A stretch of 64,000 nt of DNA from Halobacteriovorax marinus SJ (GCF_000210915.2 NC_016620.1:1860001-1924000), one strand, 5' to 3'. Shown: positions 1 to 8,680, numbered from the stretch's first letter. The notes: generated from the letters alone by a model not told the origin. Program-made: numbers and translations.

Positions 1-147
1 TTTCTTACAGAAGAGGGCAAAGTATATCTTAACGAGATCAATACTTTCCCAGGTATGACATCAATCTCTATGTTTCCAAAAATGATGGAAAATCATGGAG
101 TAAAATTCTCAGAATATCTAAGAAAAATTATAGAGGAATCCACATAA
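1..147 (+). CDS. D-alanine--D-alanine ligase family protein, C-terminal end (partial)
   Basis: The reading frame is open from the left edge to a TAA at 145-147 and gives the last 48 residues. The segment [17 protein letters not shown] is the hallmark C-terminal ATP-grasp motif of Ddl: the Glu and Asn bind Mg2+ and PGMT precedes the last helix. Ddl joins two D-alanines for peptidoglycan precursors. The next gene starts 22 bases downstream on the same strand, so this may be the upstream member of the lysine-type operon. A related ATP-grasp ligase with another substrate cannot be excluded from the C-terminus alone. Confidence 0.75.
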
Positions 148-169: not shown

Positions 170-3100
170 ATGAAGCTTCCAATTATTGGTAAAGAAACAG
201 AAGAACACTCTAAGGCAAGACTTGCCAACTCCTACGCAAATAACCTCATTCCACCAGAAAAGAAAAATTACTTAACTGATCTAAAGAAATCAACTGGACC
301 ATTTCTAGCGATAACTGATCATAACGATGAAACTAAATATCTAATGGACGCGGCTTCGCAAATTGCGACACTAGGCCTTGGCTTCTCCCCCTCTGTTTTC
401 TTTGGAGCTGCCCACTACCTATCTAGCTGGACAAATGATTCAAATTCAAAAGAGTTCCACTCCATAAGAAAGGCCTTAACTGAAACTCTTAAGAGAAAAA
501 CGAATTGGCCAAAACTAGATTTAACAATTTGTAACTCAGGTGCTGAGGCTAACGAAATTGCCCTTGGATACTGTTATAAAAAAAGGGTGAATAAGAACGC
601 CAATAAAGTTCTCGCCTTTGAGGGAAGTTTTCATGGCAGAATGATGATCACACTCTCTAGTACGTGGAACAAAGTAAAGCGTGAACCCTTTGAATGGCCA
701 GGTCATGAAACAATCTACTGCACATTTCCTGAGTTAGAAACTGACCTAATTCACCAAAGTGCACCTAAGGACTGGAGAAGCTTTTGGGCCAGCAGCTGTG
801 CGCTCGAACTTGAAATCCCTAAAGATTGGAATAAAGATTCACAGATTGAAAAAGAAATTAACTCTCTCTTAGAAGTTAGAGAAAAAATAAAGACAAAAGA
901 AATCTTCGCTATTCTCATTGAGCCAATGCAATGTGAGGGTGGTGACCGCTACAGTAGTGGGCGTTTTAACGAAGCCCTCATTCTCATGGCAAGATCCTTT
1001 GGTATTCCTGTTATCTTTGATGAAGTTCAAACAGGCTTTCACCTTGGAAAAGAATTCTTTTGGCATAAAGAATTTAACTTAAGAGATGACCAAGACAAAG
1101 AACTCTATCCCGACTATGTAGTTTGCGCCAAGAAAGCTCAAGTTGGATTAGTTCTCTCACATAACGAAGAAACTAAAAAAGAAGAGCTACAAGTATCTTC
1201 TGTCATTAGAGGCTATCTTCATGCTGTAGCACTAGATCAGTCACAAGATCTCATACACAACCTTGAAAAGTCAGCTCGAGTTCTCTTAGATGATTTATGT
1301 AAAAAGTTTGAAGGAAAGATCACTAGACCTAGAGTCAATGGAATGGCCTTTGCTTTTGAGCTTCCTAGTGCAGAGATAACGACAGAGTTTATCAATAGAA
1401 GATTTGATCACGGCCTTCTCTACTATCCAGCAGGGGCCAAGACACTTCGCTTTAGACTTAATACAAGTTTCACAAAGGGAGATATTGAGTTTCTCTTTGA
1501 AAGACTTGATCAAATGGCCGGTGAGATCTTAAATAACGAAGGTCCAAAGCCTATTAAAGAAATTGAAACTAGAGATAGAAATCTCGCGTCGATTTATGAA
1601 TGGCAGGAACTTCTCCTACTCACAAAATTGAAAGTCTTAACTGGAGAGAAACTTGACAATGAAATGTTTCAAGAAAAAATCTACTCACTCTTTGAAAAGT
1701 CTACTGGTCATAAAATCATTAGAATAGACAAAGAGAACTTTTCAAAATGGAAGGATAAGATCCATCAAATGCAGTTGGATATCTATGAGCCTACGAGACA
1801 AACTGAAATTGAAAAGTTTGAATACTGTGCTACTAGCGAAAAAGGTCAGGCAGTAGGTATCATTCAAGGTGATAAGTTACTGGCCATGAGCTTTAGCTCT
1901 CCCCTTTCTCTCAATCCGTTTGAAAGAGGCGTGAGAAATGATCCTGACTTTAACAACCCAAATGCTCTCTACATGGTCGACTCCACAGTAGGTAAAGAGC
2001 TACAAGGAAAGGGTGTTGGAAGATTTGTAAAGTATGCCCTGAGCGCTTTTGCACTAAACGATGGAATAGAGCTTATTAACGGAAGAAATAGAGATCGAAT
2101 GGCAGCAAGTATGCTAAGTATTAACTTATCTCTTGGAGCGCATGAGATCATGTATATGCGAGAGGACTACCCTGACTTTGAGAAGTATCGAAATGTTCTC
2201 TATTACACAAGTGCAACGAAGTTTAAAACTGATCAACTTAGTTTGAGTGATGCTATTAACTCTCCTCTTTCAAATTTAGACTTAACAGCAGAGAACTTAA
2301 GTGAACAATTACCATACTTAGTTAACAAGGTCTGTCTCTCAAATTTTGTCTCTCCGAGATTCTTAGATCACCTAGACTCTATTAAAAAATATCTTCCAGA
2401 GAGTTTACAGCACCTCTATACGACTTCAGGCCAATCTGAGTGTGTTGATAAGCTAGCAAAGAGTATCTGGTACAATCAAGAAGAGAAAACAAATCACATG
2501 ATTACCTTTAAGGGACACTACTTTGGTAGCGGCTCTTTTCTTTCCAGATCACTTAGTAATAGTGAAGATAAATTCTTTGATGTCACTCATCTCGACCATC
2601 CTAATGCTTCAAACGAACAAAATGTTCTGCAAGATTTAGAGAGAGTGTTAAAAGAAAAGAAGACTATGGCCATTTGGCTTGAGCCTATTGGGTCTCAAAC
2701 AATGGAGAGAATAGAGCGTGAAACATTAACCAAGATAATTGGATTAGCTTCCAAGTATGGAACAAAAGTTATCTTTAATGAAACTGCTGCAAGTTTTTAC
2801 CGCTATGATAAAGAGAACTTCCTTTGTTCCAATATAGAGGGGATTACTCCTGATGCGGCCATGTGTTTTCTAGGTGGACAGTCGGGACTTTGCTACATGA
2901 AAGAAGAGAACTTTCTGGCCAAACCTCTTATGCTCATTAGTACGTGGGATGGTGATGAATTTGCACTTTCAAACTTCCACCAAGCACTAGAAATTGTTCA
3001 CTCTGATTTTGAGAAATTTACCGAAATTCGTCTAGAGTTTACAAATAAATTATTAGAGGCCCTTTCAAATTTTGAGATCACAGAAATGGAACTTGAAAAT

Positions 3101-3223
3101 GGATGCGGTCACTTTAAAGGAAATATTTCACTCTCTCTTGCAAGATACTTCAAGAAAGTTGGAGATCGCTATTTAGTGATTCCAAGCTTTAGTGCCATGA
3201 GAGAATTCCTAGGCAAGGAGTAA
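170..3223 (+). CDS. Fusion: class III aminotransferase / GNAT acetyltransferase / inactive aminotransferase-like domain
   Basis: A 1017-residue protein with three parts. Residues 1-450 are a PLP aminotransferase resembling lysine 6-aminotransferase: NSGAEANE at 122-129, FHGR at 154-157, EPMQCEGG at 251-258, DEVQTG with PLP-binding D284, and CAKKAQVG with the Schiff-base lysine at K321 or K322. Residues about 545-690 are a GNAT fold with the acetyl-CoA loop LQGKGVGR at 611-618, placed like YodP/AblB beta-lysine acetyltransferases. Residues about 710-1017 repeat the aminotransferase fold (SGQSE at 753-757, EPIG at 838-841), but the PLP aspartate is N870 and the lysine position lies in LGGQSG (901-906), so this part is probably not catalytic. 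The next gene starts 3 bases after the stop. Aminotransferase plus acetyltransferase function is well supported; beta-lysine as substrate is inferred from context. Confidence 0.85.
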   Translation: MKLPIIGKETEEHSKARLANSYANNLIPPEKKNYLTDLKKSTGPFLAITDHNDETKYLMDAASQIATLGLGFSPSVFFGAAHYLSSWTNDSNSKEFHSIRKALTETLKRKTNWPKLDLTICNSGAEANEIALGYCYKKRVNKNANKVLAFEGSFHGRMMITLSSTWNKVKREPFEWPGHETIYCTFPELETDLIHQSAPKDWRSFWASSCALELEIPKDWNKDSQIEKEINSLLEVREKIKTKEIFAILIEPMQCEGGDRYSSGRFNEALILMARSFGIPVIFDEVQTGFHLGKEFFWHKEFNLRDDQDKELYPDYVVCAKKAQVGLVLSHNEETKKEELQVSSVIRGYLHAVALDQSQDLIHNLEKSARVLLDDLCKKFEGKITRPRVNGMAFAFELPSAEITTEFINRRFDHGLLYYPAGAKTLRFRLNTSFTKGDIEFLFERLDQMAGEILNNEGPKPIKEIETRDRNLASIYEWQELLLLTKLKVLTGEKLDNEMFQEKIYSLFEKSTGHKIIRIDKENFSKWKDKIHQMQLDIYEPTRQTEIEKFEYCATSEKGQAVGIIQGDKLLAMSFSSPLSLNPFERGVRNDPDFNNPNALYMVDSTVGKELQGKGVGRFVKYALSAFALNDGIELINGRNRDRMAASMLSINLSLGAHEIMYMREDYPDFEKYRNVLYYTSATKFKTDQLSLSDAINSPLSNLDLTAENLSEQLPYLVNKVCLSNFVSPRFLDHLDSIKKYLPESLQHLYTTSGQSECVDKLAKSIWYNQEEKTNHMITFKGHYFGSGSFLSRSLSNSEDKFFDVTHLDHPNASNEQNVLQDLERVLKEKKTMAIWLEPIGSQTMERIERETLTKIIGLASKYGTKVIFNETAASFYRYDKENFLCSNIEGITPDAAMCFLGGQSGLCYMKEENFLAKPLMLISTWDGDEFALSNFHQALEIVHSDFEKFTEIRLEFTNKLLEALSNFEITEMELENGCGHFKGNISLSLARYFKKVGDRYLVIPSFSAMREFLGKE

Positions 3224-3226
3224 TGA

Positions 3227-4333
3227 ATGCAAGACTGTAACTTCCCTATCATTCGCTACGAAGAAGGAAAGAGTAATTTTGAGTGGGGAATTCAACACGC
3301 AGAAGAACATAGAACTGCAATCAGAGAGCTTGTTGAGATTCGTAGAGAATTGATGTTAAAGAGAAATCCATCTCTAGCAGGAGAATTACTCCCTCTTGCT
3401 AGCGCTCAGTTTGAAAGTACTTTAAAGTATTGCCCCAATAGCGCGAACGAAATAGAAGGTATTGCTAAAGGCAGTGGCCTCTCTCTAACCGATATCGTAA
3501 TACTCAATAACTATACTGACTTTAGAGATATTTCTCTCGTAGATCAAGGGTGCTCAACAGTACAAATTCAAAATAGCCATTCTATACTCAGTGGACAAAC
3601 GTGGGATATGCACGCAAGTGCAAAGAATTATCTCTGTCTCATTGATGTCCCAGCAACAGAGGAAAATAGTGCATCTCTTATACTCTCAGTAGTTGGTTGT
3701 GTCGGGCTTATGGGAATAAATACCCAGAGCTGTCTTATCGGAGTGAATAATATAAATACAAATAAGGCCGCAGTAGGACTTATATGGCCGGCACTTGTTC
3801 GCCAGAGCTTAGAGTCTGTGAATATATCACAGATGAGAGATACACTCTTAAATGCACCTGTAACCTCGGGCCACAACTACCTTATCTCAACACCAAAGGG
3901 TGCCGAGCACTGGGAAATTACGCCTACTCACAAAGACTTAATCCATGCCCACGGTGATGGGGAAGAAGGTTACTCTTTTCATACCAATCACTGCCTAGGT
4001 GAGAATGTATCAAAATTAGAAAGTAAGGAATTTGTTAGTGCTACAACCCACGCTCGCTACGAAATACTAGAGCAAAGTGTGAAAAATACCCACTCCATGC
4101 AAGAGTTAAAGCAATTGCTACAGAGTCATGAGGGTATGCCTAAGTCCATTTGTTCTCATTACGACAACGGAAATAGTAAGGACCCTTCACAGACTTGTGG
4201 TGGTGGTATTGCAAATTTAATAAGCGGTGAGATCAACTTCTGGAGAGGTTGCCCCGAATATGATCCAAGCTATAAAGAATATAGCTATAAACTAGATAGT
4301 GAAAATAAATCATTCTCACTTCTAAAGAATTGA
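3227..4333 (+). CDS. C45-family autoproteolytic acyltransferase/hydrolase
   Basis: A 368-residue protein of the acyl-CoA:6-aminopenicillanate acyltransferase-like (peptidase C45) family. These Ntn-hydrolases self-cleave between Gly and Cys to expose a Cys nucleophile. The expected site is visible as DQGCSTVQI with C109 as candidate nucleophile, followed by SGQTWDMH, the typical GxNWD-like segment. A GGGIANLI stretch lies near the C-terminus. No signal peptide is visible. It sits 3 bases after the fusion gene and 6 bases before the second aminotransferase. In the Bacillus kamA-yodP operon this slot is held by the deacylase YodQ, so this protein may remove the acetyl group from an acetylated beta-lysine breakdown product. 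That role is inference. Confidence 0.75.
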   Translation: MQDCNFPIIRYEEGKSNFEWGIQHAEEHRTAIRELVEIRRELMLKRNPSLAGELLPLASAQFESTLKYCPNSANEIEGIAKGSGLSLTDIVILNNYTDFRDISLVDQGCSTVQIQNSHSILSGQTWDMHASAKNYLCLIDVPATEENSASLILSVVGCVGLMGINTQSCLIGVNNINTNKAAVGLIWPALVRQSLESVNISQMRDTLLNAPVTSGHNYLISTPKGAEHWEITPTHKDLIHAHGDGEEGYSFHTNHCLGENVSKLESKEFVSATTHARYEILEQSVKNTHSMQELKQLLQSHEGMPKSICSHYDNGNSKDPSQTCGGGIANLISGEINFWRGCPEYDPSYKEYSYKLDSENKSFSLLKN

Positions 4334-4339
4334 GGCCAT

Positions 4340-5530
4340 ATGAGCGATCATCCATTTTACTTCACTTGGACGGCCCAATTGAAGGCCCTAAGAATTGAGA
4401 TTGAAAAATCTAGAGACTGCTATTATTTAACTACAGAGGGTAGAAAACTCTATGATCTCTCTTCAACGAGTTATCAAGCGGCCTTTGGGCATAGCTTTAG
4501 TCCCATAAAAAAGGCCATTCAATCACAACTCAACTCACTACCTATCTCATCTCCTAAGGGCGTATTTGAATTAAAGCAAAGGGCCACCCAGAAATTAATT
4601 GAATACCTCAATATTCCTGGGAAAATTTTCTACACTGTCTCGGGAGCTGAGAGTATAGAAAATGCCCTAAAGATGGCGAGACAAATCTCAGGTAAGGAAA
4701 TTATTCTTGCGAGAAAGAATTCATACCACGGTGCAAGTCTCGGGGCCTTGAGTGTTACAGGAGATTGGCGAACAAAAGATCATAAATCACTATCAAAGTG
4801 GACAAAGAGAATTCCTGACCCACAAGTTGATCCAAACGCAGAGAAGCTTGCACAATTAATAGAAAAAATTGGAGCGCAAAAAATCGCCGCCATTTGTCTG
4901 GAAACGTTCATTGGAGGCAATGGAGTTATCTCGGCCCCGCTATCGTGGTGGAGAGGACTCGCTAAGCTTAAAAAGAAATATGGCTTCTTTATAATTTTAG
5001 ATGAAGTGGTGTGCGGCTTTGGAAGAACTGGAAAACCATTTGGGTTTCATCACTTACCTATTAAGCCGGATTTTATCTGTATGGCAAAAATCATAACAGG
5101 TGGATATATTCCCTTCGGTGCCGTTTGGACATCTAAGGAAATTGCTAGTTACTATAAGTCTAATACACTCTCCTGTGGTTTAACTAATTACGCGCACCCT
5201 CTCGGGCTTAGTGCAATGGAAAGTGTTATTGACTCTTTAAAAACAACTCAACTTAAAGAACAGATTAAAGAGCTTTCTCATGGTCTAGAGACTTATAAAG
5301 AAAAGTTTGAATTGATAGGAGTCGTTAATGAGGTCAGAGTCATTGGTACCCTCATGGCAATAGATCTTAAAAAGAATATTCCTTTTCAAAGATTTATTGA
5401 TGAAGATATCCTGGTTGCCCTTGTTGGACAGAGAATAATCATTGCTCCTCCATTTACAATGAGGCCAAGCATTTTAAAGAAATTATTAAAAAGAATCGAA
5501 GGACTCCTAAAGGAAGATAGTCATGAGTAA
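4340..5530 (+). CDS. Class III PLP-dependent aminotransferase
   Basis: A 396-residue complete fold-type I aminotransferase of the ornithine/GABA class. Visible motifs are SGAES at 101-105, SYHG at 128-131, DEVVCGFGRTG with PLP-binding D221, and CMAK with catalytic K250. Length is near the family norm of 400-450. It is the YodT counterpart in the proposed lysine operon and would deaminate an N-acetylated beta-amino acid to a 3-oxoacid. Exact substrate is inferred from the adjoining 3-oxoacid CoA-transferase. The stop overlaps the next start by 8 bases, indicating translational coupling. Confidence 0.85.
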   Translation: MSDHPFYFTWTAQLKALRIEIEKSRDCYYLTTEGRKLYDLSSTSYQAAFGHSFSPIKKAIQSQLNSLPISSPKGVFELKQRATQKLIEYLNIPGKIFYTVSGAESIENALKMARQISGKEIILARKNSYHGASLGALSVTGDWRTKDHKSLSKWTKRIPDPQVDPNAEKLAQLIEKIGAQKIAAICLETFIGGNGVISAPLSWWRGLAKLKKKYGFFIILDEVVCGFGRTGKPFGFHHLPIKPDFICMAKIITGGYIPFGAVWTSKEIASYYKSNTLSCGLTNYAHPLGLSAMESVIDSLKTTQLKEQIKELSHGLETYKEKFELIGVVNEVRVIGTLMAIDLKKNIPFQRFIDEDILVALVGQRIIIAPPFTMRPSILKKLLKRIEGLLKEDSHE

Positions 5531-6218
5531 AGTATATCTAAACGCCGATGATGCTTGTAAGGATATTCACAGTGGTGCACGCATTATGAGTGGCGGTTTT
5601 GGTCTCTGTGGTATTGCAGAGAATTGTATTGATGCGCTCACTAAATTAGATATCAAAGATTTAACTCTAATATCTAATAATATTGGAAATTCAGGCAGAG
5701 GACTTGTAAAGATCTTAATCCAAAATAAGATCACAAAAGCATATTGCTCATATGTTGGTGGAAACCCCGATCTAGAAAAACAAATGCTCGCAGGAACTGT
5801 AGAAGTTGAACTTGTCCCTCAAGGTACCTTTAGTGAAAGGATTAGGGCGGCAGGGCTAGGCATTCGAGCCTTTTATACTCCAACTGGTTATGGAACTTTA
5901 GTAGCAGAAGGTAAAGAAACCAAAGAATTTGATAGACCATGTATTTTAGAGACTGCGCTACATGCTGACTTTGCCATTATAAAAGCTCAAAAAGGTGATA
6001 AGTACGGAAACCTGTGGTTTAAAGAGACTGCAAGGAACTTCTCCCCTCTTATGGCCATGGCAGCAAAGACAACAATAGTTGAAGTAGAAGAGTTAGTTGA
6101 ATTAGGAGATATTCCCGCAGAAGATATCCACTTACCAGGTATTTTTGTACAGAGAATCTTTCAAGGAAGAGATTATAAGAATGATATCGAATTTTTAAAA
6201 ACTGAGGACGAACAATGA
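5523..6218 (+). CDS. 3-oxoacid CoA-transferase, subunit A
   Basis: A 231-residue family I CoA-transferase alpha subunit (AtoD/ScoA/YodS type). The signature GGFGLCG at 24-30 is followed by the usual NNIGNSGRG, GTFSERIRAAG and GNLWFKETARNFSP segments. It pairs with the next gene to move CoA from an acyl-CoA donor to a 3-oxoacid. Its ATG lies 8 bases inside the upstream aminotransferase gene, and its own stop overlaps the beta-subunit start by 4 bases, as expected for subunits made in equal amounts. Confidence 0.9.
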   Translation: MSKVYLNADDACKDIHSGARIMSGGFGLCGIAENCIDALTKLDIKDLTLISNNIGNSGRGLVKILIQNKITKAYCSYVGGNPDLEKQMLAGTVEVELVPQGTFSERIRAAGLGIRAFYTPTGYGTLVAEGKETKEFDRPCILETALHADFAIIKAQKGDKYGNLWFKETARNFSPLMAMAAKTTIVEVEELVELGDIPAEDIHLPGIFVQRIFQGRDYKNDIEFLKTEDEQ

Positions 6219-6832
6219 GCTGGACAAAAGAAGAAATGGCCAAAGAAGTTATAGGACTTTTTAAACAAGGCTCATCTGTAAATTTAGGAATAGGTCTTCC
6301 TACTCTTATTGCGGAACAAATACCTGAAAGCTTAGATATTATGATCCATTCAGAAAATGGAGTCCTAGGAGTAAAGGGGAGGCCTAAGAAGAATGAAGTC
6401 TCACCTACACTTATTAATGCTGGAAAAGAAACTATTTCTATAAATAAATCTGCAAGCTTCTTTGATAGTTCAATGAGTTTTGGAATGATTCGCGGTGGCC
6501 ACATAGACTATTGTGTACTTGGTGGAATGGAAGTCGATGCAAGAAAATCTCTTGCAAATTGGATGATTCCGGGAAAGAAAGTCACTGGTATGGGCGGAGC
6601 GATGGATTTAGTCAATGGATCAAAGTGTGTCATTATTATGATGACTCATTTTAATAAAGACGGCGAGACTAAGTTAGTAGAAGAGTGTTCACTGCCACTA
6701 ACAGGATTAGAAGTAGTAGATATCGTAGTTACTGACCACGGAATATTTAAACCAAATGGTAAGAAGTTTGAAATTATTAAATTGGCCGATGGTGTTTTAA
6801 AAGAAGATTTGAAAGCAGAGATTTATTCATAA
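6215..6832 (+). CDS. 3-oxoacid CoA-transferase, subunit B
   Basis: A 205-residue beta subunit (AtoA/ScoB/YodR type). The catalytic glutamate is E47 in SENGVLG; LGIGLPTLIA at 24-33 and the C-terminal VTDHGIF and FEI segments fit the family. It ends the operon and is followed within 10 bases by a GC-rich hairpin. In the proposed pathway the pair activates a 3-oxo-acetamidohexanoate-like acid to its CoA ester for thiolysis; ketone-body or acetoacetate use is the alternative. Confidence 0.9.
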   Translation: MSWTKEEMAKEVIGLFKQGSSVNLGIGLPTLIAEQIPESLDIMIHSENGVLGVKGRPKKNEVSPTLINAGKETISINKSASFFDSSMSFGMIRGGHIDYCVLGGMEVDARKSLANWMIPGKKVTGMGGAMDLVNGSKCVIIMMTHFNKDGETKLVEECSLPLTGLEVVDIVVTDHGIFKPNGKKFEIIKLADGVLKEDLKAEIYS

Positions 6833-7068: not shown

Positions 7069-7434
7069 ATGGGCCCAATACAAAAGTTATATCATTCAAT
7101 TAGAGAGTTTCTCTTTCCGGGTCACTACAAAATACAATCATTTACATTCTATGTCCCTTCTCCTCCGACTAGAAAGGTCGGTTACCGTGAGAAAGAATTT
7201 GATAAGATCTTCTACTCTTTTATTAATCGTGGATTTCAAATAATAGACATAAAGACTCAGTCTAATGCAAACTCTACCCAATCCGGTATGTGGATAATTA
7301 TTATTGCAAAGTCTCTTAGAAAGTCCTCAGCAGCACTTAACTTCGAAGATGCAGAGTTATCTGAACACTCACTTGAGCCGATTCCAGAAATGGACCAAGA
7401 AGTTATTGATGGACTTTACCATATCAATGATTAA
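7069..7434 (+). CDS. Hypothetical protein, 121 aa
   Basis: I do not recognise this protein. It has no signal peptide or clear membrane segment. The N-terminal half is basic and aromatic (PGHYKIQSFTFYVP), with a central hydrophobic strand GMWIIIIAK, and the last 35 residues are acidic. That pattern suggests a small mixed alpha/beta cytoplasmic protein. A shadow frame starts 8 bases upstream, but this frame ends exactly at the start of the downstream lipoprotein (ATGATTAA overlap), which supports it. A promoter-like sequence lies about 40 bases upstream. Confidence 0.6.
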   Translation: MGPIQKLYHSIREFLFPGHYKIQSFTFYVPSPPTRKVGYREKEFDKIFYSFINRGFQIIDIKTQSNANSTQSGMWIIIIAKSLRKSSAALNFEDAELSEHSLEPIPEMDQEVIDGLYHIND

Positions 7435-8680
7435 GAAAGTTACTCTCCTATCTATTCTGCTTTCTCTTCTCACAAGTTGTGGAGTTTTTATCAAGCTTGA
7501 TCAACCTGACGAAGAGATTGTTTTTAAGAAAGATCTCACCAAGTTAATTTGTCCTATAAAGAAAGACGAACTTATATTAACTACTGCCTCAAGTGCTAAC
7601 CAAGGACTATTTAAAGATAGGTTAGAGATCGCTGCTAAGAAGCATAACTTAAAGGCAATCGACATATTTGTCATGTGGGCCATTATTCAAATCTATATAA
7701 GGCCCAATAAAGTCTCTCCAGGTTCTTCACTGCAATTTGTAGATACTGATAAGACGAGTCCTTTTTATATAAATTATAATTTAAAAATAAATAAAGACCC
7801 TAACCTTCTATTTAACTCTCTAAAGGATCTCTTAAAGAGATACCGCTCCAAGAGATCATTACAATATTTATCTCGTATCGTAGATGACATACTTCCCTAC
7901 CAAACTTCTGTCGATCATGAACTCTCTTTATTTCTCTCTGAAAATAGAGCACCTCTTTCAAAGAATAGCTCACTTGAGAAATTTTATTTTAAAGGTGATC
8001 AAGTACTTCGAACAGGTGAGGGCCTAAGAACTTTTAAAATTTGGCCTTTAGTTAGCCAAGCAGCCTATAAGAAAAACTCTGCAAATACACATCTCTTCTC
8101 GTATCAAATTGATAAAGACAAAGTGGCCAATTGTAATTTTGATATGAGAATCTATCAGAATGCGGTCTACCTCATTAATCAAACAGAAGGCGTGAACTCA
8201 CATCCGTTTTCAATCTCATATAAAGGGAGTACTTTCCTAGGAATAAGTGCTCAAGTTCCAGATATCCAAAAAAACTACCACAACTCCTATTCATTTACTC
8301 CAAGTGAACTAGGAGAACAGAATGCCGTTTGCTTTATAAAGACGAAAAACTCAAATTTCTCTCTCATCTCAACAAAGGGAAGAGATAGCGGACAGCATCT
8401 CTTTAATATGATTGAATACAACTTGGCCCATGCCTCATCTGTAGATGAAGTTCTGACAATATTAGAATTTCCAAGATATCTTTTCCTATTAAATCCTGAG
8501 AGGATGATTTACGAGTCAGATAGATCTAGTGAAGCGCAGACCCAAACATTTTTAAACACCAGCTTTCCTATCTATCATAAATCAAATCTAGGAAATGTTT
8601 GGATTCACTATCAAAAACATAATCAGAAGACCTTACTTATAGATGATAGAATTCCAAGCTATAGATCATGCTTACTGTAG
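7427..8680 (+). CDS. Putative lipoprotein, unknown function
   Basis: The ATG at 7427 is preferred over upstream in-frame codons because it begins a textbook lipoprotein signal: MIKKV, a hydrophobic core, then the lipobox LTSC. It also overlaps the preceding stop by 8 bases. The mature part, about 400 residues, shows no motif I recognise. It contains a middle segment GSTFLGISAQVP and a Cys-containing AVCFIKTKNSNFSLISTKGR. The 3' end overlaps the small ferredoxin gene by 13 bases. Lipoprotein export is well supported; molecular function is unknown. Confidence 0.7.
   Translation: MIKKVTLLSILLSLLTSCGVFIKLDQPDEEIVFKKDLTKLICPIKKDELILTTASSANQGLFKDRLEIAAKKHNLKAIDIFVMWAIIQIYIRPNKVSPGSSLQFVDTDKTSPFYINYNLKINKDPNLLFNSLKDLLKRYRSKRSLQYLSRIVDDILPYQTSVDHELSLFLSENRAPLSKNSSLEKFYFKGDQVLRTGEGLRTFKIWPLVSQAAYKKNSANTHLFSYQIDKDKVANCNFDMRIYQNAVYLINQTEGVNSHPFSISYKGSTFLGISAQVPDIQKNYHNSYSFTPSELGEQNAVCFIKTKNSNFSLISTKGRDSGQHLFNMIEYNLAHASSVDEVLTILEFPRYLFLLNPERMIYESDRSSEAQTQTFLNTSFPIYHKSNLGNVWIHYQKHNQKTLLIDDRIPSYRSCLL

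Follow-up and report, generated by a model that had tools for sequence, protein, structure and literature searches.

A cluster of five genes in Halobacteriovorax marinus SJ probably encodes the catabolism of lysine via beta-lysine and N6-acetyl-beta-lysine, with end steps through GABA and with a fusion enzyme in which two aminotransferase halves would form one composite active site. We put the probability of this reading at roughly two thirds. The window, i.e. the whole stretch of 64,000 nucleotides that was analyzed, spans C1:1860001-1924000. The genome comprises 3,437,906 bases and consists of two contigs, of which the first measures 3,435,933 bases. The five open reading frames are all located on the + strand at positions 170-3223, 3227-4333, 4340-5530, 5523-6218 and 6215-6832. 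Neighboring frames overlap or are separated by a few bases, which confirms the tight spacing noted in a preliminary description of this DNA. Family searches also bore out the gene content given there (an aminotransferase, an amidase-type hydrolase and both CoA-transferase subunits). The first gene encodes a three-part fusion protein of 1017 amino acids and is followed by genes for a C45 family Ntn hydrolase/acyltransferase, a class III aminotransferase resembling BioA and omega-amino acid transaminases (Lys250), and subunits A and B of a 3-oxoacid CoA-transferase. Subunit A reached 252.2 bits against TIGR02429 (cut-off 128.5), and subunit B, which harbors a conserved SENG motif with Glu47 at 6353-6355, reached 260.9 bits against TIGR02428 (cut-off 243.5). 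A scan for promoters and terminators yielded signals no better than those of shuffled sequences.

The link to lysine is provided by lysine 2,3-aminomutase (KamA). The preliminary description had expected kamA and a 3-oxoacyl-CoA thiolase gene just left of the window; this placement was ruled out, as the genes upstream of the operon are thrS and ddl. The expectation of a kamA gene in the genome itself proved correct. It is located 172 kb from the operon (C1:1687891-1689231; L005:7892-9235) and encodes a full-length protein of 447 amino acids. Alignment with the lysine 2,3-aminomutase of C. subterminale (2a5h) shows that the equivalents of D293 and D330, which we take to be the lysine-binding aspartates, are both kept. 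The protein scored 276 bits against the AblA model TIGR03820, below the curated cut-off of 525.4, and was assigned to the subfamily TIGR00238. Among 129 genomes of the class Bacteriovoracia, 51 harbor both the fusion and KamA, five the fusion only, eight KamA only and 65 neither (Fisher p = 1.7e-21, with genomes treated as independent and phylogeny ignored). KamA is thus absent from 65 of the 73 genomes without the fusion, and all five fusion-only genomes are at most 88% complete. In three of the KamA-only genomes (G058-G060), which are large-genome members of the class, KamA belongs to a gene cluster of classical lysine fermentation, together with Kdd and the KamB-E genes (KamB, KamC, lysine 5,6-aminomutase; L160:8153-17394, L161 and L159). 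The cluster is annotated in L160, and the other two loci look alike by sequence start. A search of 14 further genomes detected KamA in 11; of the remaining three, one (G136) carries the fusion, and the others encode only a stand-alone relative of its first aminotransferase domain. KamA accompanies the fusion in all four deltaproteobacterial genomes that encode the latter.

KamA does not belong to the operon in the window genome, but it does so in the Planctomycete homologues, where it follows CoA-transferase subunit A in four loci (L122, L123, L135 and L136). Two of these (L123 and L136) show the order fusion, C45 protein, aminotransferase, CoA-transferase subunit A, KamA, CoA-transferase subunit B and thiolase, so that one cluster contains a candidate gene for each expected step other than the final dehydrogenase. 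The presence of KamA in the window genome, its co-occurrence with the fusion and the Planctomycete operon with KamA and thiolase together make the beta-lysine catabolic reading of the operon well supported. In the window genome, no thiolase ortholog was identifiable, the best of five being 36% identical to the Botrimarina thiolase, and the stretches read around the deltaproteobacterial fusions showed no C45 gene. The full order of thrS, ddl, fusion, C45 protein, aminotransferase and both CoA-transferase subunits is present in 29 loci. As this gene order is conserved over much of the class, the arrangement is not due to chance. The genes thrS and ddl are conserved neighbors in Bacteriovoracia but are absent from the Planctomycete and deltaproteobacterial operons; thus, ddl (D-Ala-D-Ala ligase) is probably not part of the pathway. 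Its 3' end occupies positions 1-147 (+ strand) of the window, and ddl overlaps thrS upstream. The same overlap, about 20 bases ahead of the fusion, is found in Bacteriovoracia (L004:9405-12148), and a second ddl-like ATP-grasp gene is present in the genome at C1:2358479.

We infer a pathway that runs in the catabolic direction with the following substrates. KamA would convert L-lysine to beta-lysine, and the GNAT domain of the fusion would acetylate the 6-amino group of beta-lysine, which would prevent cyclization. The stand-alone class III aminotransferase would then take off the 3-amino group to yield 6-acetamido-3-oxohexanoate, which would be activated by the CoA-transferase. A thiolase encoded elsewhere in the genome would release acetyl-CoA and leave 4-acetamidobutyryl-CoA, from which the C45 Ntn hydrolase would cleave the acetyl group, and perhaps also CoA, yielding GABA. 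The latter would serve as substrate for domain 1 of the fusion, which would produce succinic semialdehyde by transamination, and an aldehyde dehydrogenase would oxidize the semialdehyde to succinate. The acetylated beta-lysine route ends with this conversion of GABA via succinic semialdehyde to succinate. The stand-alone aminotransferase is proposed as the N6-acetyl-beta-lysine transaminase, in the role of YodT, since its likeness to BioA and omega-amino acid transaminases makes it suitable for removing a beta-amino group.

The second gene had been described as a C45 hydrolase in place of YodQ, which is of the ArgE/DapE kind, and the C45 family was confirmed with 148.2 bits against C45_proenzyme (NF040521; cut-off 85). 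At least 98% of 44 sequences share Gly108-Cys109, and Cys109 (3551-3553) is the predicted nucleophile. The nearest solved relative is the acyl-CoA:6-APA acyltransferase of Penicillium (2x1d), which shares the C45 family and the Gly-Cys cleavage/nucleophile motif, whereas the protein described here is bacterial and encoded in a putative lysine operon. Acyl-CoA:6-APA acyltransferase acts on both amides and CoA thioesters, and this chemistry suits the role of 4-acetamidobutyryl-CoA deacetylase that we propose for the C45 protein.

The fusion (170-3223) was modeled by AlphaFold2 over its whole length of 1017 amino acids with a pLDDT of 89 and a pTM of 0.91. It had been described as an aminotransferase-GNAT fusion, and both of these domains are present, but a third part (residues ~700-1017) had been missed: in a profile search, Aminotran_3 matched two separate stretches of the protein. 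Domain 1 (residues 1 to ~460; 170-1549) has GABA aminotransferase and lysine 6-aminotransferase (LAT) as its nearest structures. Its residues R157, E256, D284, K321 and R427 correspond to R170, E243, D271, K300 and R422 of LAT (2cin), as counted along the printed alignment, and K321 (codon 1130-1132) is the predicted PLP lysine. Catalytic and carboxylate-binding residues are shared with LAT (Rv3290c, 2cin) and GABA aminotransferase (1ohv), whereas sequence identity with these proteins is about 20-22% and the Thr loop would come from a second, lysine-less domain. This domain 2 (2267-3220) is a degenerate class III aminotransferase, in which the PLP aspartate is replaced by N870 and the PLP lysine by L901.

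The fusion architecture recurs across genomes: 56 distinct fusions, encoded by Bacteriovoracia, Planctomycetes and deltaproteobacterial MAGs, were aligned to survey their residues. The five residues of domain 1 listed above occur in all 56 fusions, whereas a threonine at the position of LAT T330 is present in six. In domain 2, the PLP lysine is absent from every fusion and the PLP aspartate is present in one. The ISTWDGD motif (2936-2956) is kept, with S924, T925, W926, G928 and D929 in 56/56 and D927 in 55/56 sequences (ISTW-D/E-GD); T925 corresponds to T330 in the phosphate loop of LAT. In class III aminotransferases, the phosphate-loop threonine contacts the PLP phosphate of the partner subunit. 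The complementary residue pattern suggests that the two halves pair as an internal pseudo-dimer and share a single composite active site, to which domain 1 would contribute the PLP lysine and domain 2 the phosphate-binding Thr loop. The fusion is an unusual enzyme, as each aminotransferase half lacks what the other half keeps and an acetyltransferase is positioned between them. On balance, we lean towards the view that this single-chain pseudo-heterodimer, with its one composite site and the GNAT domain between the halves, is the hub of acetyl-beta-lysine degradation and that the operon supplies genes for orphan enzymes. By a similarly narrow preference, these would be the acetyl-beta-lysine transaminase and the 4-acetamidobutyryl-CoA deacetylase, with a semialdehyde dehydrogenase sometimes fused in front. 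Four-part fusions of ~1640 amino acids, composed of a semialdehyde dehydrogenase, an aminotransferase, a GNAT domain and a pseudo-aminotransferase, are encoded at two deltaproteobacterial loci (L146:8126-13069 and L148:8111-13021), and their extra N-terminal domain is AstD/SSADH-like, i.e. of the succinylglutamate/succinic semialdehyde dehydrogenase group. No plasmid-borne fusion was found, and a literature search, in which coverage of subscription journals was mostly absent, found no paper describing the fusion.

Domain 1 had been called lysine 6-aminotransferase-like. LAT is indeed among its nearest structures, but identity with LAT was not supported, as domain 1 scored 94.5 bits against the L-lysine 6-transaminase model TIGR03251 (curated cut-off 520.8). 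The eukaryotic GABA transaminase model gave 88.1 bits, and the sequence of domain 1 does not separate GABA aminotransferase from LAT. Besides domain 1 and the stand-alone enzyme of the operon, the genome encodes two class III aminotransferases. One is AstC-like and is located beside AstA- and AstD-like genes; the other has 425 amino acids, a length from which we judge it to be HemL. The AstC-, AstA- and AstD-like genes (L241:3787-7708) apparently represent an arginine succinyltransferase pathway in the window genome. As the two other enzymes are AstC-like and HemL-like, domain 1 is favored as the best candidate for a GABA aminotransferase in this genome, with succinic semialdehyde as its predicted product, and the dehydrogenase domain of the four-part fusions likewise favors conversion of GABA to succinic semialdehyde. 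Alternatively, within the same beta-lysine pathway, domain 1 might, like LAT, remove the 6-amino group from lysine or beta-lysine and produce an aminoadipate-type semialdehyde, with the GNAT domain and the C45 protein serving a side branch or protection. Domain 1 is about equally near to LAT (2cin) and GABA aminotransferase, and the semialdehyde dehydrogenase of the deltaproteobacterial fusions would also suit aminoadipate semialdehyde. However, transamination of the 6-amino group would leave the acetylation pointless, and the full operon suits the acetylated route, so that we regard this alternative as unlikely.

The GNAT domain (residues ~495-690; 1652-2239) contains the acetyl-CoA motif LQGKGVGR at 2000-2023. 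It scored 15.3 bits against PF00583, which is below the gathering score of 20.7, but its own model (pLDDT 77) matched many GNATs in Foldseek with E values of ~1e-5, in agreement with a GNAT fold. The preliminary description had grouped this domain with YodP/AblB and had made the proposed pathway depend on that grouping. The fused GNAT showed no match to TIGR03827 (the YodP/AblB family), and hhalign against AblB/YodP gave a probability of 27%, which rules out that it is AblB/YodP; we judged the KamA linkage to outweigh this result. Of the route from lysine via beta-lysine to acetylated intermediates that had been suggested, the KamA linkage held, but the adjacency of kamA, the YodP/AblB type of GNAT and the identity of the lysine 6-aminotransferase did not. 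A separate true AblB (304 bits) is encoded at C1:887685-888479 (L224:7653-8486) of the window genome, so the fused GNAT might be dispensable for acetylation here. The AblB gene is followed by a PutP-like sodium/solute symporter gene, as is also the case in at least one close relative. Only some Bacteriovoracia contain AblB, and most fusion-bearing genomes lack it. AblB and the symporter possibly form an osmolyte system that shares the single KamA, and N-acetyl-beta-lysine may also be an osmolyte in the window organism and this relative, as it is in other organisms according to two reports (PMC12776343, PMC1224877).

It is improbable, however, that the operon itself handles the synthesis and turn-over of N-acetyl-beta-lysine as an osmolyte in this marine bacterium and does not serve lysine catabolism. 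The neighborhood of AblB and the symporter and the osmolyte role in other organisms would agree with such a function, but AblB is missing from most fusion-bearing genomes, the CoA-transferase and the thiolase indicate carbon catabolism, and some relatives come from groundwater according to their record titles. Least probable of all is degradation of another beta-amino acid with a KamA link that is a coincidence of lineage: the enzyme families are all broad and kamA is unlinked in the window organism, but KamA lies within the Planctomycete operon, co-occurs with the fusion in deltaproteobacterial genomes and is absent from most genomes of the class without the fusion (65/73).

Lysine catabolism via acetylated beta-lysine has a biochemical precedent, as this route was reportedly worked out enzymatically decades ago in Pseudomonas sp. 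B4 by Barker and co-workers. Its acetylation, transamination, CoA activation and thiolysis are matched by candidate genes here or in relatives, and the same is true of its 4-acetamidobutyryl-CoA deacetylase-thiolesterase and separate GABA transaminase. In contrast to that route, the pathway here would start with KamA acting on L-lysine, and a single fusion protein combines the GNAT with an aminotransferase. To our knowledge, most steps of the acetylated route are without an assigned gene, and none was found in a literature search that had most subscription papers outside its coverage. With the Planctomycete cluster, each orphan activity of the route receives a named candidate gene. Predatory Bacteriovoracia consume prey protein, and the proposed pathway suggests that many of them could obtain acetyl-CoA and succinate from lysine.

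The kamA-yodP-yodQ-yodR-yodS-yodT genes of Bacillus share with the system described here KamA, an acetyltransferase, a class III aminotransferase and the two subunits of the CoA-transferase, whereas the GNAT domain here is outside AblB/YodP, a C45 protein replaces YodQ, and an active and a pseudo-aminotransferase domain are additional. The parallel to Bacillus that had been drawn therefore stands for KamA, the aminotransferase and the CoA-transferases, but not for a YodP-family GNAT, a YodQ-kind deacylase or a kamA gene in the operon. For B. subtilis, YodT has been described as uncharacterized and the physiological function of KamA as undetermined (PMC6522883). The kamA gene of B. thuringiensis and the six genes upstream of it are organized in two operons, and the kamA promoter is controlled by sigma-54 (PMC4428206). 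Lysine fermentation of the clostridial type (KamA, KamDE, Kdd) also begins with KamA but includes no acetylation; it replaces the fusion in G058-G060. Positions 7069-8680 of the window, downstream of the operon, encode a small conserved protein and a lipoprotein-like protein that belongs to no known family; both follow the operon in many Bacteriovoracia.
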